Shown here: piece after piece, positions 5,059 through 15,228 of the stretch
How the letters are laid out: each line of letters begins with the position of its first letter
Numbering within the stretch: position 1 is the stretch's first letter
DNA from: Auricularia sp. M13
Lineage: Eukaryota; Basidiomycota; Agaricomycetes; Auriculariales; Auriculariaceae
Reading direction: 5' to 3'
Length of the DNA stretch: 64,000 nucleotides
NCBI GenBank assembly: GCA_037042915.1
Contig: CM073201.1
Location: 1,178,001 to 1,242,000, forward strand
Notes under the pieces: model-generated
Database searches by the model: none
What the model was told of the DNA's origin: nothing
Seen by the model: only the letters and a program-made list of their open reading frames with translations
Made by a program: the position numbers and the translations under genes

Positions 5059-5188
5059 CAAGGGGCCCGCACGATTTGGATCCGTGATATCGTCTGGGGG
5101 AGGGGGGGTCGTGGGAAATGATCTGGCGTCTACCGGCATCCCGGCAGATGCGATGTCGGTCGATGGCTCGGACTGCCACCGAGCTGCG
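5059..5188 (+). repeat. Left terminal inverted repeat, 130 bp
   Basis: This stretch recurs in reverse complement at 9906-10035 without a mismatch, including a G5-A-G7 tract that would be prone to slippage. It begins CAAGGGGCCCGCACG and ends GAGCTGCG. It lies between the Sfp1-like 5' region and the transposase gene. Confidence 0.9.
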
Positions 5189-5200
5189 GTCTTATTGCAG

Positions 5201-5233
5201 CCGTCTCAAACGCTCAGTGAGCGTTTGAGACGG
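5201..5233. repeat. Perfect 33-bp palindrome inside the left end
   Basis: Two 16-bp arms (CCGTCTCAAACGCTCA and its reverse complement) surround one central G. It starts 12 bp inside the left inverted repeat and lies downstream of the transposase stop codon, so a transcript would form a strong hairpin here. It has no counterpart near the right end. It may be a transposase-binding subterminal site, a terminator-like hairpin or a nested tiny insertion. Confidence 0.85.
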
Positions 5234-5310
5234 GTGCAATTGAAAATGCGCGATTTCTCGAACAGTCCGCGCAGGTGAATTCAAGCAAAGTACACAAGTG
5301 AATGCTATTA

Positions 5311-8300
5311 CTAGGCTGCAGACTGGGACGCTAGTTTAGTTTTATACTCTTCAATGGCATCCGAGTCAGGCAAGCGAGCAACTTCACGATGTCGTTGCGT
5401 CTGCTCCTTCGAAATCCCGAGTCTCAACGACTCTTCCGAGCTAACGTGAGTGTCTACTAGTAAGCGCATGATGTGAGCTGGCTCGTAGTCGGCGTCATCG
5501 CTGTGAGCAGCGGCGCAATGGAAGAGTGCATTGTACTTCCAAATTGTACGGAGCTGCCCCGATTTCGATGGCGCGCACAGCGCACAGTGAATTGGAACAT
5601 TGCTTGATTTGCTTGTATCCGTGGATTCTGCCGCTTTCTTGTAGTTCATGTTCTCGTAGTGATATTCGCAGCTCGATGAGATTTGAAACTGGTTCTTCCG
5701 GCGCCTGAGCATTGTAGTGCAAGCACCGAGGCCGCAAAAACCGCATGGATTGGCAGGGACTTGGTCCTGTGGAATGAATTAGTGCAGCAAATATTGATCT
5801 GACGTCGATCTTACGCATTGCGGATCAGGGACCTTTCTCAGTGCGCGAAGAAGGTGCTCGCCAACATGATCCCGCATCTTGGATAGCTTGAGATTAGCAC
5901 GGCAGAGCTTGCATGGCAGTAATTCTTGCGCTTTGTGCTTCTTCTTTGGCTCAAGGTGCGGCGGCAACGACTGCACCTTGAAAATAACTTTGCCTGAACT
6001 GCGTGAGGAGAGCACAGCACTGTGAAATTGGGCGCACCATCTGCAGAACGCAAAGGCAGATCCTTCATGTTTTCAACGACGGGGAGGAGGAGAATGTTGG
6101 ACATGATCCCCTCTGTTTCAGGGTTGAGCGCGTCCCAAGCGTCCTCGCACGTCTGCAACATGTCATCCTGTGAAAAGGACCATGTAGCGGTAGGTCCGAC
6201 AGCTAAAATATAATCAGAGAATACTACTTCGTTGCTCTAGGACGCACTTTCGGAATTCCGGACTACCTGGCTCAGCACCGGAGCCATGATAGACGTAATC
6301 GCGGCAGGTACCTCAAGGACATAGCGCGCGTGCGAGATCTGCGTATCCATTTTGTCATCCAGCTGGAGATACTCTCCGGTCCAAGTCCACGTGTGTGGCT
6401 CCGCCTGCTCAAGACGGAGCACTTGCCCGATCACCACCGTCTTGAGGTTCTTCGAGTTCTCCTCAAACTCATCGAGAGTGAGCGAGACACGCGCTTCACC
6501 CCATGACATGCGAAATGCTGAAATTTCGAGCAGGACCAGTGCGTAAGCTGTTCCGACGCGCGCAAGAAACGCAACAATGTCGCCAACTTTGACAGTAGAC
6601 CCGTCGTCCATCTGCGTGCCGCCAAGAGCCACTACTTTTGAGTGGTGGAAATCTTGGAGAGAGCGCCCTGCTGCACGGAGCGGCCGGGTTGTGAGCTTCT
6701 TGTTGGACTCATCGGTAGAGAGTGTTGCAACATAGGCAGACTTGTAGAATGTCTTGCCCTCTGCATTCACGAATGTCGGAAAAACTTTCTGGTGAATTGT
6801 CTGCGATAGCTCCGGTGATGACTCGTCAACGACTGTGTCGGGAAAGAAGTCGTCGATGTCAAATCCAGGTTCTACCATGGCCGCGTCGAGCTCGTCTGAC
6901 GGATTGCGTGTATTTTCCGAAGCATCCGTTGCGTCGGCAGCTCTATCTGTGGTCTGATAGTGCGGCTGAACAGCACTGGTCGTGCGGTGACGGGGAGAGG
7001 CTCCTGCGCTGCTAGCCTCCGGTGCTGGCTCGGCCATTGGAATATGTAAGGACTCAGCTGGTTCCGCGCGTTCCGAGCGGTTCTCAAGCTGTTCATTATG
7101 CAGAGTACGCTCATCGACGCCGACATAGAGCCCAGCAGGACGGAGCACATCGTGATTAGGGCGAGAGAAACAAGCCTCGAAGTCGAAGTCTGGCCGTCCC
7201 GGGAAAGCCTTACGAAAGCGGGCAAGGGCTTTTTCGCGGCCAGTCGCCCACGCCCGCGCAAGGTCCACATTTCCGACGCACACATCTCCCTTCCAGGAGC
7301 GCGGGTTGAGATGGTCAATCCCGATCGTCTTCGACACATCGAGTCGGCGATGACCACGATCGAGATCAGGCCTCCGCTGAAATATGGCCTGGATGAGACA
7401 CGCAATGGCAAGCTTGCTCGAGAGCTGAGAAATGTCGAAGTTGCGTGCGTGATCGAGAGTGCGGACCTCTGAGAAAACCTGCTCCAGTCGATCTGTCCCC
7501 TCGAGCAGTAGCCAGAAGCAGAGCGTCGGGTCAAGGAGCTGGAGGCGAGCAACAATCGTAAAGATGTTCTTCACAATTGCCTGTGTGTCGTAGTAAAGTG
7601 CGCCGGTCATGCAGGTGTTACCGTGCGCATCGTACAAAATGACCGCAGCATGTGCAAATGCCGCCAGTGACTCCAGTTGCTGCTGTAAGTTCATCTCAAC
7701 GTCGATAAATGGGCAGACGAAGAACCAAAGAATGTCCGAAAAAAACTGGACAGAAGAGCGCCGCTTTGATTCGGCAGGCGAAGAGACTAAGGCGGGGGCG
7801 TTGTTCAGCTGCTGGAGCGACTGCATTAGACTAACGGCCTTGGGCACGTTCTGCTTGTCTGCAGGGTCCAGTAAGTTGCGCGCGGTCAGGTACTCCATTG
7901 CTGTGAATACCCGGAGAACCATAATGACGTCGTGCGGGCGGATATTCGTACCATAGAGCATGATGCCCTCGGAACTCCGCAGGAGGGTGGCAAAGCGCTT
8001 GAACACATGCTTCGGATCGCACGTCGTTGTCATCCCTCCATCCGCGGACATGTAGCGATTGAAGCCACGCAGCGGAGCCAGCTTCTGTCCGAGCGGTGTG
8101 AGAGGTGAGATCTCGGCGACAACGCAAAGAGCGTGCTTTGCGCGGCGATACGTTGCATCGCCGTCGCTGCCGAGAGACCAGATGGGGCCGTTCAACATGC
8201 GTCCATACTGATGCAGATTCCAGGACTCCACAACAGTCGTAAGCCAAGCCTGAAGCTGCTCGGCCTTCTCCTTTTTATTGGAAGGGGACGAAACGAGCGG

Positions 8301-9775
8301 GACCGGCGTGTAATGCTCGCGTTGCGAATAGGGCGCAATGGCGACAATAGTGGCCTCAGTGCCGAAGGCAACTGTTTTCGCATGTAAAGCACGTCTAATC
8401 GTCTCGATATTCTCAACGGAAGTCGCCCGAGTGTCCAGACTGCCGATAGTCTCGCGAGCCAGGCCAAGAACCTGGTCGCGGTCTTGATCGTAACGTGCGC
8501 GTGTCTCAAGCGCCACTCCATCGAACATGAGTATATTTCCAGCGTGAGAGCCGCTGCGGCTGGACGGAACCGGTGGAGGGCGAAATTCTGGGTCAAAAAA
8601 CGCGGCGATATTGTGCAGAACATCGTCACGAAGAGGTATCGCGACGGAAGCACGCATCCGCGGAATCTTTGCACGACGCTCGAGCGTGCGCTTCGAGAGG
8701 AGCCCAAGTCCCTTGCACATTGCAAAGTGCATCCTCTCACCACCAGCGTAGGCCGACAAGAGCGAGATGTCGCGGAACCGTTCATCAGAGACGTGCGGGT
8801 GATACTGTCCGTCGGCTGCCAGTTTCAGAACAGAGAGAATTCGAGCCGGGGTTGATTCAGTGCGGAGTGATGCAGCAATGACCCAGCGCACGCGCTGGAT
8901 ATCGTTCTTGGAGAGAAACAACAGAACGCGTTCATGATCCCGCACGCGATTCTGCGCATTGCGGTGACGCCGGCGCAGGGACTGGACCTGCGTAAAACAC
9001 AAGTGAGTTACAAAGCAAAGGGCATTCACGTGCACTCACCTTGGATCGTAATTTCTTCTTTTCTGCAACGTGATAGTGCGTGACGGCAGCAAGCTGACTG
9101 TGTGTAAGCTTGTAATATGGGGTGTTCAGCGGTGCATCTGCACGAGCGCGTTCCAGCATGTGAAGAAAAGCGCCAGAGCCAATGACTTTGAGACACTCCA
9201 CACAGGCCTCAGTGGCAGTCGTCGTCTGCTGGCGGCACTTCTCTGAGCGGAAGTAGATTCTGTTCAGACGTGTATTATAGCCACACGGCAGCCAGCCCAG
9301 GGAATCATCGATGTGCTCCTGGAACGGGTACATGTTCCAGAACGAGCCCCAAGTCCAGACATAGTAAGCACCCGGGCAAGAGTAGTACACCGGACGCCTC
9401 GGGGTGGACGGAACCGCGGGGAGACTATGAGAGACTACAGGTGTTGTGAACTATGAGACGGATAATTTAGCCTAAACACCTTCCATTTGAATGTAATTAA
9501 ATCACCTTTCTCTGCTCAGCTACGCGCTTGTTACAATTTCTAGACTTGCGGTGCGTCAACATATTATCTGCAACCGCCGTCGGGCCCGAGTTGACCTCAA
9601 ATCCGCAGAGATCACAGACAAAGAAGTGATAGCCAGTATTCTCGTCGTATTTGGACCACAGCTCGAGGTCAGAGGTCACACGGATTGCGCGTGAGCTGGA
9701 GCTCCGCGCATGGAAGACACCGCTGGGAGGAGGTACAGCCAAAAGCTGTACGGTATTCGGCAGAGCACTAGACAT
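5311..9775 (-). CDS. Transposase-like protein with N- and C-terminal zinc fingers
   Basis: The multi-exon model runs from the ATG at 9775 through exons about 9775-9506, 9454-9040 and 8997-6252, and further short exons to the stop at 5311; roughly 1,400 residues. The first exon holds a CDLCGFEVNSG...H finger (about residue 60). The largest exon is a globular core with FDGVALETRARYD, GSDGDATYRRAKHA, a CDPKHVFKRF motif and LEGTDRLEQVFSEVR; the spaced acidic residues could form an RNase-H-type D-D-E/D centre, but that is inference. The C-terminal exons carry CKLCRANLKLSKMRDHVGEH and further Cys pairs (NPCGFCGLG; HCALCAPSK), typical of DNA-binding fingers. All exons are open and splices (for example TTTTAG acceptor about 6206) restore frame. 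I know similar proteins as abundant unnamed Agaricomycete hypotheticals. Lying between identical inverted repeats makes a transposase the simplest explanation. An alternative upstream Met at 9976 lies inside the repeat and is less likely. Confidence 0.75.
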
Positions 9776-9905
9776 TGCGCCGGTAGAGCACTCGATGGGA
9801 CGGTGAGTGTAGCAGTACAAGGAGCGTAGCTTATCGATCCAGCACAATGCGCGTGCGCTCGCATGCGCTGGCAAGCGGGCCGCACCCGCACTCACGTGCA
9901 GAAAG

Positions 9906-10035
9906 CGCAGCTCGGTGGCAGTCCGAGCCATCGACCGACATCGCATCTGCCGGGATGCCGGTAGACGCCAGATCATTTCCCACGACCCCCCCTCCCCCAG
10001 ACGATATCACGGATCCAAATCGTGCGGGCCCCTTG
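9906..10035 (-). repeat. Right terminal inverted repeat, 130 bp
   Basis: Reverse complement of 5059-5188 with no difference. Its outer end (plus strand ...GGGCCCCTTG) is followed immediately by a 26-bp palindrome. Its inner end lies about 130 bp upstream of the transposase ATG, so it may carry promoter sequence for that gene. Confidence 0.9.
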
Positions 10036-10061
10036 GGCGAAAGCCGAATTCGGCTTTCGCC
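10036..10061. repeat. Perfect 26-bp palindrome abutting the right repeat
   Basis: The half-site GGCGAAAGCCGAA is followed directly by its reverse complement with no spacer; the centre is the EcoRI-type hexamer GAATTC. It begins at the very base after the inverted repeat ends. No copy exists at the left junction. It could be a hairpin-derived insertion scar or pre-existing target sequence. Confidence 0.85.
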
Positions 10062-12605: not shown

Positions 12606-14050
12606 CTATCCGCGCGGCACGCCCTTGTCGAGCTCGCGAACGATGAGGTCGTTCACGGCGCGCGGGTTGTCGAGGTAGACTGCACACTTGATCAGCTTCT
12701 CGCTCTAAGCCACAAGTGTAGGACGCACCGTGGTGTCCCGCGTCTGGGACGATGTACATCTTGGCTTCTCGGTTGCCTGCTGCTTTCAGCGCCTTGACGC
12801 TTTCGGTTCCACCAGCGGGGTCCATCCAATCGTGATCGCCGTCTTCGATGCATGAGCCTAAAAACATCAAGCAAAGCAACTCGTGCACTCACAGACGAAG
12901 GTAATGGGGATCTTCAGCTTGTCAATGCGGTCGACGAGCGGTCTGCGCGCGTGGGCGCCGGGCGCGAGGATATGCGAGATGCAGTACTCGCTGCTGCCCT
13001 TGGCGGCGGTAATGTTGTATATATACTCGTTCATCTCGCGCGTCTCCTCCTCGGTAAGTCCAACAAAACGGCGGCTCGAGTACTTGCCGACGAGCATGGG
13101 GCCCCACATGCCGGCAGTGCGGACGACCTGGAACGGCGAGAAGCCCTCCTCCCAAAGGTACAGCCCGACGCGGCGCAGCAGCGGCTGGTTGCGCGCGGCG
13201 CGGCGCTGCTCCTTCTCGATCCTCTTCGCCTCGTCCTTGGACGCCGCGTGCGCCGCGCCGTCGCCGTGCGGCGACGGGTCGACCTCGGCGGACGGCAGCG
13301 ACGCGTCGTCGGGCCCGCGCGGCACGCCCGCGGGCGAGAGCAGGATGATGCGCGCGACGCGGTCCGGGTGGCGCAGGGCGTATGCGACAGAGAGATAGCC
13401 GCCGAGCGAGTGGCCGATGAGCGTCATCTGCGGCAGCTGCATTTTCTCTCGCCATTGCTCCTGCGCTGGGCCGTCAGCGGTCAATTACAACTCGATAAAT
13501 TCTTGGTACTCACGAGGGAATCGATAAAGAAGCTCTCGGCCTCGCGCACGCGGCCGTCGATGTCCGTCTTCTTCGCTTTGACCTCGAATGGCACGCGCGC
13601 AGAGCGGCCCATGCCTAACCAGTCGAGCAGGAACACGGGCGCGCCGCGGCGGGCGGCCCATTTGCCAAATGTCTCGAAATTCATGAAATAAAAGCCAGAG
13701 CCGGCGCCGTAGCCGTGCAGGACGACCGTGGCGGGCGGGGCACGGTCAGCGGGCGCTGGGTTTGCCGGAGTAAACGATATGGTGTTGATGTACTTCTTCG
13801 CGGTGGCATCGAGCGCGACATGCTCGACGGTGGCCGTGACGGGCGGGGCGGGCGTCGGGATGGGCGTGCCTTTGGGGTAGAAGTACGGCAGCCGTCTGAG
13901 CAGGCGCTCCTCAGCCAGCGCACTCTCCTTCTCGCCGGCGGCCCACCAGGCCTTGAGGGACGCCTTGAAGCTGTCGGGCACGGGGCGCGCGGGCGCCAGC
14001 GGCGAGTCGGCGGCGGCGACGGCCTGGGTGAGGACGGACGCGGCGGCCAT
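12606..14050 (-). CDS. ABHD4/5-type alpha/beta hydrolase (Cld1/Ict1-like)
   Basis: Four exons (14050-13514, 13460-12893, 12842-12729, 12679-12606) join in frame to about 430 residues. The protein has an oxyanion motif HGYGAGSGFYFMNF, then LLDWLGMGRSAR, the nucleophile elbow GHSLGGYLSVAYALRHPDRV (Ser, about residue 196), an acid-loop DHDWMDPAGG and the catalytic His in GHHVYLDNP. This set is characteristic of the CGI-58/ABHD4 group, whose fungal members (Cld1, Ict1, Ect1) are lipid acylhydrolases or acyltransferases acting on cardiolipin, lysophosphatidic acid or acylglycerols at mitochondria and lipid droplets. Ser, Asp and His are all present, so catalysis is expected, unlike mammalian ABHD5 which lacks the Ser. 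A charged Arg/Lys/Glu insert (KDEAKRIEKEQRRAARNQP) sits in the cap. The chosen ATG precedes MAAASVLTQA; an in-frame ATG at 14164 would add 38 residues, possibly a targeting extension. Confidence 0.9.
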
Positions 14051-15228
14051 GCGGGCTGTTCTGGCGAGACGTAGGGCGGACGTGGTGTCGGTGAATGCGG
14101 TATAAGAGCAAGGTGCAATGCTCCCGCCGTCCCGCGCCCGCACATGGGTGGCTGCGCGGCGCACTTGCGCAATGGTTCGGCATGAGGAACGCGTGGCTGT
14201 GCTCCAACGATTGCCTCCGCGCGCGCTGTCCTCGGACGGAGCTCGTAGAAATCAAAAGTCTCGCACGACTGACCTTCGGGTTTTTGGATGCCAGGAATTT
14301 CTAACTTCCCTGCGTCACAGAGCGCGTCGCCGGTTTCGTTTTCCTGGGAGAGCCACAGATTTGTCAGCACAGTGCAACGCGTGTCGTCAACACGCACACG
14401 TCAGCACAGGTCCGATTTCTTTTCGGCGCTTATATAATACGCTGACGTTCCAAATTCGTGCGCAGGCCGCCGCACACTGGTTTTGCGCTGCTCGTTGAAA
14501 CACAGCCTTTCACGCAGGCAAGAATCACCGACATGCTCGCGGCCAACGCGAATCCAATCCCCGATGCAAGGCTTCTGCGCTTTAAAATATCGATTTTCGG
14601 TCACCAACACTTCGACATTGTTTGACACCTCTTCCACGCTCGTGACCTCAAGCAACTCGCCCAACAAGCCGCCCATAATGCCGCTGGGCCAAAATATCCC
14701 TGTCCTTCATGCGGACCGCCTCTGGCAACCGTGGTGTGGGCAGTTACAGGCTGGGGAGTTACTATGATGTAAGCTACCCGATGCCAACCGGTATAACTGT
14801 ACGACTTGTAAGTACAAGTATGTCCGCGGGGAGATTGGCACTGACATTAAGGTAGGAACCCGCATGAAACCCGTAGATGTCGAATGGGTCGATGACCACA
14901 TCGCTGGCCGACGTTCCAATCGACAATTGGGGTCTTGAGAACCCAGAACATCTCAATGCAGGCAGCGAACGCGTACCCGCGTAAAGCATGGCTTTCATTT
15001 TCTCCGAGAAACGGTAAGCTCGAAATCTGCGTGCCGGAGTGGAGGCGAATATAACCAAAACCACAGGCCCTTTGCGACATCTGCAATACTGTACCTTGCT
15101 ATACTCAGGGCACGAGCCAATGAGACTATGACCGATTCATCACGCCCAGGAGCCAGGCCACTGGTCACAGGAGCTCCGGGATGCGCGTCCCGGTACAAAT
15201 CAGACGCACACCGGTGCCACTTGGGGAA
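14051..15228. other. Divergent intergenic region with possible unassigned minus-strand exons
   Basis: Between the hydrolase (-) and the aldolase-type gene (+). Two minus-strand stretches look somewhat protein-like: about 14774-15010 (motif DVVIDPFDIYGFHAGSYLNV) and about 14401-14676 (motif MGGLLGELLEVTSVEEVSNN). They could be exons of one short gene, but I could not connect them with clean splice sites or recognise a family. Confidence 0.3.

Follow-up and report, generated by a model that had tools for sequence, protein, structure and literature searches.

A CAAGGG-ended cut-and-paste transposon family in Auricularia with probable distant kinship to P elements

Among the eukaryotic cut-and-paste transposons, those of the P superfamily carry a signature consisting of D230, D303, a [C/D](2)H motif at D339, and E531 (PMC8230255). 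D528, three residues before Glu E531, is a GTP-contacting residue in the P element, and 8-bp target duplications are made by these transposons (PMC7776569). P elements of rust fungi are on record (P-1_PSt, P-1_MLP and others), and were presented as "previously unknown in any Dikarya" (PMC3164196). The element described here lies in a 64,000-nucleotide stretch of the genome of Auricularia sp. M13 (assembly GCA_037042915.1, contig CM073201.1, positions 1,178,001–1,242,000), hereafter the window. With a probability that we put at about 0.7, it is a complete and probably autonomous cut-and-paste transposon encoding a 1,386 amino acid DDE-type (Asp, Asp, Glu) transposase, the core of which is most likely of the P-element (TNP/THAP9) type, as a distant branch.

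A preliminary description of the locus had proposed a whole-looking transposon of 4,977 bp with identical 130-bp inverted ends. The unit occupies window positions 5059–10035, the coordinates first given being exact, and its two ends are perfectly complementary over their full length (Table 1); the runner-up inverted pair in the same 6.1-kb stretch has only 29 nt at 72%. A single gene, on the minus strand, is enclosed. Its 932 amino acid open frame (9035–6240) contains all of the spaced acidic motifs that had been noted in a large core, FDGVALE, GSDGDATYRR, CDPKHVFKR and FSEVR. The one open multi-exon gene that had been claimed was recovered as a model of six exons and five GT-AG introns (55, 52, 99, 50 and 48 nt), specifying 1,386 residues with no internal stop. 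This model is our own and was built from the sequence, the flanking exons being backed by similarity to relatives. Where finger modules had been reported at both ends of the protein, Cys/His-rich modules were indeed found N- and C-terminally, and the last part of the C-terminal array is matched in 11 of the 12 fetched relatives, the exception being L043.

Using the 130-bp end as a query, seven places were found in the 52-Mb genome, which correspond to both ends of three complete copies and to one relic end on C1. The preliminary description had named beforehand a single occurrence of the end as grounds for refutation; the search returned two more complete copies and the relic. The complete copies are that of the window, on C9, and those at C11:23753–28729 and C11:2421040–2426012. 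Between C9 and C11 the identity is 99.5%, with homology breaking off no more than 3 bp from the element ends, and the full frame is intact in all three copies. The relic end, at about position 5255 of locus L010 (C1:5393254), starts CAAGGGGCCC and is 81% identical over positions 1–59 of the query; no partner end was recognised within the 9.5-kb locus.

The two C11 copies have their flanks in common, in inverted orientation; the match runs for about 280 bp ungapped to one side and for 1.5 kb or more to the other. If gaps are allowed the inverted duplication amounts to 8,294 bp at 99.1% identity (at least 8.3 kb). Because these inverted flanks are shared, the two copies are one insertion that was duplicated together with its surroundings. 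One arm of the duplication (L008, C11:22000–31000) is found some 24 kb away from a contig end, the other (L009, C11:2419500–2428000) 2.4 Mb inside, the transposon having been carried along.

Three queries taken from different branches of the family (the window core, a part of L045, and L049) led to the same 15 loci, which is a lower bound, and all 15 were fetched and examined. Since the C11 pair is one duplicated insertion, the 15 loci represent 14 independent sites. CAAGGG is present at both ends in all 15, including 12 relatives more distant than the near-identical copies; the end search made use of CAAGGG-type words, so that the common word is partly a search criterion, which the 8-bp duplications were not. 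Independent support for the ends comes from L039, L040, L047 and L048, where they coincide with the stop of the sister-copy homology, and from L043 and L049, where they do so to within a base. The exact inverted repeats of the window clade measure 130 bp (window copy), 118 bp (L008), 111 bp (L041), 84 bp (L040), 82 bp (L039) and 48 bp (L009, in which 2 bp are missing from each end), while those of the remaining nine elements measure 6–14 bp. At a threshold of at least 85% identity the repeats exceed 100 bp in six of the 15 copies, all of the window clade, and extend over 7–24 bp in the other nine.

Perfect 8-bp target duplications, of the length also made by P elements, flank the element at 12 of the 14 independent sites, with two exceptions, the window copy and L039 on C8. 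The duplicated sequences are GCACGGCC, CGCCGACC, GCTTGAAC, GGCAAGGC, CGTCCACA, GGTTGATC, GGGATACT, GTGGAAAC, GTCATTAC, ATGAAGTT, GCTCTTGG and GTCCCATC. As a control, shifted pairs of 8-mers from the flanks of 14 elements were compared and were equal in only 5 of 23,520 comparisons. The target preference is palindromic, G......C: of the 24 positions in question, 17 have the favoured base, G as the first or C as the eighth (binomial p 2.4e-5, with the base composition of the window as background). A 6-bp duplication with ends of the form CCAAGGG...CCCTTGG was also considered and was ruled out, as five of the 12 sites (CGCCGACC, GGGATACT, ATGAAGTT, CGTCCACA and GCTCTTGG) deviate from it and 8 bp fits all 12.

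Two further pairs of near-identical copies bear on the mode of spread. L039 and L040, the latter with a target duplication, are 97.0% identical over exactly the element length, as are L047 (1504–7662) and L048 (1534–7698) at 99.4%, and the duplications of these last two differ (GTCATTAC and ATGAAGTT). Homology confined to the length of the element, together with the different duplications of L047 and L048, identifies both pairs as the outcome of transposition events, not of the duplication of host genes. The inverted ends, the duplications, the several insertions and the predicted transposase gene together class the window unit as a real DNA transposon (class II, terminal inverted repeat, cut-and-paste), in agreement with the whole-looking transposon first proposed.

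The rates of non-synonymous (dN) and synonymous (dS) change were calculated by the method of Nei and Gojobori. The C9 and C11 copies differ by 12 synonymous and six non-synonymous changes in 1,386 codons (dS 0.012, dN 0.002). The values for the other pairs were dS 1.31 and dN 0.046 (L042/L043), dS 0.065 and dN 0.012 (L039/L040), dS 2.7 and dN 0.40 (L039/L041), and dS 0.015 and dN 0.007 (L047/L048), the last showing the weakest contrast. Synonymous sites were saturated or nearly so in L044/L045 and in two comparisons with the window copy, and L047/L049 was excluded since one of its sequences had been read out of frame (13 stops). In every usable pair dN is lower than dS: for the most part, the family protein has evolved under purifying selection. 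Such constraint, like the inverted duplication of at least 8.3 kb in which the two C11 copies do sit, is in keeping with a host gene family carried in segmental duplications with inverted flanks. The chance that this is what the family represents is practically nil, since in C9/C11, L039/L040 and L047/L048 the homology is limited to the CAAGGG-bounded unit to within 3 bp, and it is ruled out for the family by the target duplications, which are exact and 8 bp long at 12 of the 14 sites.

The window core was aligned with 12 relatives (13 rows, numbered from the 932 amino acid frame). The order of the conserved motifs, D, D, D(2)H, DxxE, and the local motifs themselves agree with the published P signature. 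The catalytic triad of the superfamily has its counterparts, as conserved motifs only, in D172, D291 and E518, and the [C/D](2)H motif in D340-P-K-H343. The distance from the second Asp to the Glu is 227 residues versus 228 in DmTNP, a good fit; that from the second Asp to D(2)H is 49 versus 36, and that from D(2)H to the Glu 178 versus 192. In zebrafish THAP9 the first and second Asp are 87 residues apart and the second Asp and the Glu 245 (PMC10983969).

Profile searches point in the same direction. PF21787, the TNP-like RNase H N-terminal domain, was the only Pfam transposase family matched by members of the family. Of three members scanned, L045 (E 5.4e-4) and L043 (E 0.0042) matched and L044 did not; a ten-member scan, in which most rows lack the region of the first Asp, gave one match (E 0.18), a further scan gave matches in two of seven members, and both consensus sequences matched (E 0.18 and 0.03). 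A better control than these scans is the genome-wide one, which at E<=1 gave three matches in 52 Mb (E 0.08, 0.13 and 0.27), all three at the first Asp of family members; the same profile gave no match in 14 control genomes. Exons 1 and 2 of the window gene, which encode the N terminus, gave no THAP match. As THAP is reported to be restricted to animals (PMC7776569), its absence does not exclude a fungal P branch. One scan each of viral contigs and of bacterial and archaeal genomes gave no relatives.

Several observations weigh against the assignment to the P superfamily or against the picture of a typical insertion. The window copy itself has no target-site duplication (flanks GCGGAACA / GGCGAAAG), which the preliminary description did not mention, nor has L039 (2456–7939; C8:2894555–2900038), where both ends are present (GCACCACT / TGCTCGAC). 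The first and second Asp are 119 residues apart versus 73 in DmTNP, a poor fit. The best PF21787 score, 20.7 bits, is below the cut-off of 24.6, all other scores being likewise sub-threshold, and the matches span only 29–42 residues around the first Asp; the window protein and L044 gave none. Non-transposase families reached similar values in the ten-member scan (Serum_albumin, E 0.012; Thump_like, E 0.065; one member each). PF21789, the TNP-like RNase H C-terminal domain, matched weakly at four places in the genome (best E 0.18), all of them outside the family, so that single E-values near 0.2 can be due to chance. PF21788, the GTP-binding insertion domain, had no match in the genome, but the controls gave none either. 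Searches of PDB sequences with the window core and two alignments gave chance matches only (best E 0.55) and reached no P chain. The single-sequence AlphaFold2 models were poor, with a mean predicted local distance difference test (pLDDT) of 35.9 for the 932 amino acid frame and 43.0 for a 216 amino acid part.

Some of these points would suit a DDE cut-and-paste superfamily of its own, standing outside P, in which the order D, D, D(2)H, E and the 8-bp duplications were convergent or deep features of the RNase H fold. The weak PF21787 match confined to the first Asp, the unmatched PF21788 and PDB P chains, the spacing of 119 residues, the C-terminal position of the Cys/His array and the lack of a detected THAP domain are all in keeping with it. 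Against it stand the facts that PF21787 is the sole transposase family matched and, genome-wide, is matched only in this family, and that DxxE and D(2)H are both P-like. We consider a separate superfamily unlikely, though not negligibly so, and membership of the P superfamily likely but unproven.

Other transposon classes were compared by their domains. Zisupton, of the KDZ (Kyakuja-Dileera-Zisupton) class, shares the 8-bp duplications with this family (PMC12730594), and the genome is rich in KDZ, another class of mushroom transposon, with 149 matches to PF18758. None of these matches lies inside the 15 elements (coordinates compared by eye), and no KDZ match was obtained for any scanned member. 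That the family belongs to KDZ, in the manner of Zisupton, is accordingly very improbable, and this identity is rejected to the extent that the Pfam KDZ domain is diagnostic. No hAT transposase or dimerisation domain was found in any Pfam scan of natural members, for which E<=10 was asked, the HMMER filters dropping most matches above about E 0.1 in spite of this setting. Mutator-like elements (MULEs) have long repeats and 8–10-bp duplications; no MULE match was obtained in any Pfam scan, and a MULE identity, like a hAT one, was set aside.

From the conserved residues and the insertion sites a mechanism may be proposed. The transposase would bind the CAAGGG ends, possibly by way of its terminal zinc modules. 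Its core is predicted to adopt an RNase H fold with a metal triad of D172, D291 and E518 and the D(2)H motif, the latter separated from the last Glu by a large insertion; cleavage of the ends would be carried out by the triad with two bound metal ions. The excised element would then be joined to the target at points 8 bp apart, preferably with G as the first and C as the eighth base, and repair of the gaps would leave the 8-bp duplications that are seen at the insertion sites.

Table 1. Features of the window copy (positions in the window; gene model and motif roles are predictions)
Feature	Position	Strand	Evidence
Left terminal inverted repeat, 130 bp, starts CAAGGGGCCCGCACGATTTGGATCC	5059..5188	+	100% complementary to 9906-10035; 98-100% match at ends of two other copies; inter-copy homology begins here
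47-bp near-perfect palindrome	5194..5240	.	Just inside left end in all three near-identical copies; also by itself at three further genomic sites
Exon 6 including stop codon, C-terminal Cys/His array	5311..5766	-	Gene model; similarity to relatives
Exon 5, C2H2/C2HC-type finger	5815..5970	-	Gene model; PF18574 E 1.6e-4, 21.9 bits, below cut-off 25
Exon 4	6021..6167	-	Gene model; 44-50% identity to L039-L041
Exon 3, putative transposase core with conserved acidic motifs	6267..8987	-	Gene model; 13-member alignment; invariant columns
D515-x2-E518 (DRLE), proposed catalytic Glu	7482..7493	-	13/13 rows
D340-x2-H343 (CDPKHVFKR), D(2)H motif as in P superfamily	8007..8018	-	D-x-K-H in 13/13 rows
D291 (GSDGDATYRR; SDG/TDG), proposed second catalytic Asp	8163..8165	-	13/13 rows
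D172 (FDGVALE), proposed first catalytic Asp	8520..8522	-	D in 12/12 covering rows; L046 fragment does not cover
Exon 2	9040..9450	-	Gene model; 32.8% identity to L039, L040, L041
Exon 1, N-terminal Cys/His module (CDLCGF...H...C)	9506..9775	-	Gene model; counterparts in L041 (E 3e-6), L039 and L040 (only E 0.02)
Right terminal inverted repeat, 130 bp	9906..10035	-	Complementarity; matching ends in other copies; homology boundary

Two palindromes are associated with the window copy. A perfect one of 26 bp, GGCGAAAGCCGAATTCGGCTTTCGCC, occupies positions 10036–10061, flush with the right end of the element, and has no second copy in the genome when up to two mismatches are allowed. A rearrangement of the right flank after insertion would be the simplest guess for both this palindrome and the missing target duplication. 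The 47-bp palindrome inside the left end consists of ATTGCAGCCGTCTCAAACGCTCA and nearly its complement. Close variants stand alone at L052 (C12:176441), L053 (C12:1192803) and L054 (C1:8711565), with TA flush on both sides at L053 and L054, and it looks like a very small foldback element or a miniature inverted-repeat transposable element (MITE) of the mariner type. To the right of the element, minus-strand frames at 12867–14164 resemble, by eye, an alpha/beta hydrolase (GHSLGGYLSVAYALRHPDRV).

Similar proteins are probably scattered through other mushroom genomes. The proposal that the family is unnamed was tested only in part, and to that extent it stands: the Pfam scan of the window exons gave the core no match of its own, and among the matches listed by full-text literature searches, outside the scope of which fall most subscription papers and the Repbase entries, no description was found of the family or of mushroom elements with CAAGGG ends and 8-bp duplications. 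In Kojima's 2025 survey of fungal TET-encoding transposons the term P element is absent from the main text (PMC12730594). Of two papers on Marasmius oreades, one names hAT, LINE and Mariner elements (PMC9674265), while the other names Plavaka, Dileera and Kyakuja, with no occurrence of the term "P element" (PMC8290104).

More likely than not, the family is an undescribed branch of mushroom cut-and-paste transposons whose core has the order D, D, D(2)H, DxxE. It would then be either a superfamily in its own right or a deep P lineage in which zinc modules of its own replace THAP and in which very long and very short inverted repeats occur in one genome. The family boundaries, the 8-bp duplication, the G......C preference and the P-like affinity are new relative to the preliminary description. 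What was a group of proteins without a Pfam model is thereby delimited as a transposon family, its ends exact, its duplications fixed in length and its target preference defined; masking, dating and mobility tests of its copies become feasible. If the kinship with P is true, the range of P-type transposases, which includes animals and rusts, would be extended to a mushroom-type fungus in which the DNA-binding part is different, and comparison with the family could help to show which components of the P machinery, such as the GTP-binding insertion and THAP, are essential.

Among known systems, Galileo, a Drosophila member of the P superfamily, shows that a P-type element may carry long inverted repeats (PMC3688188), whereas here they are found in only six of the 15 copies. 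The KDZ transposons resemble the family in being DNA transposons of Agaricomycetes and, in the case of Zisupton, in the length of the duplication (PMC12730594). They differ in the KDZ domain, which is absent from these elements. The hAT elements make 8-bp duplications and possess a split RNase H domain with a helical insertion; their target, nTnnnnAn, is unlike the G......C of this family, and no hAT domain was matched. From the P superfamily (Drosophila P, THAP9, zebrafish Pdre2, and the rust elements P-1_PSt and P-1_MLP) the family differs in its CAAGGG termini, in exact inverted repeats of 6 to 130 bp, in Cys/His modules at both protein ends with no THAP found, in the longer spacing between the first two Asp residues, and in that neither the GTP-binding nor the RNase H C-terminal domain of Pfam could be detected. 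The likenesses to this superfamily are the 8-bp duplications, the order D, D, D(2)H, DxxE, a similar spacing from D(2)H to the Glu, and the weak match of some family members to PF21787.

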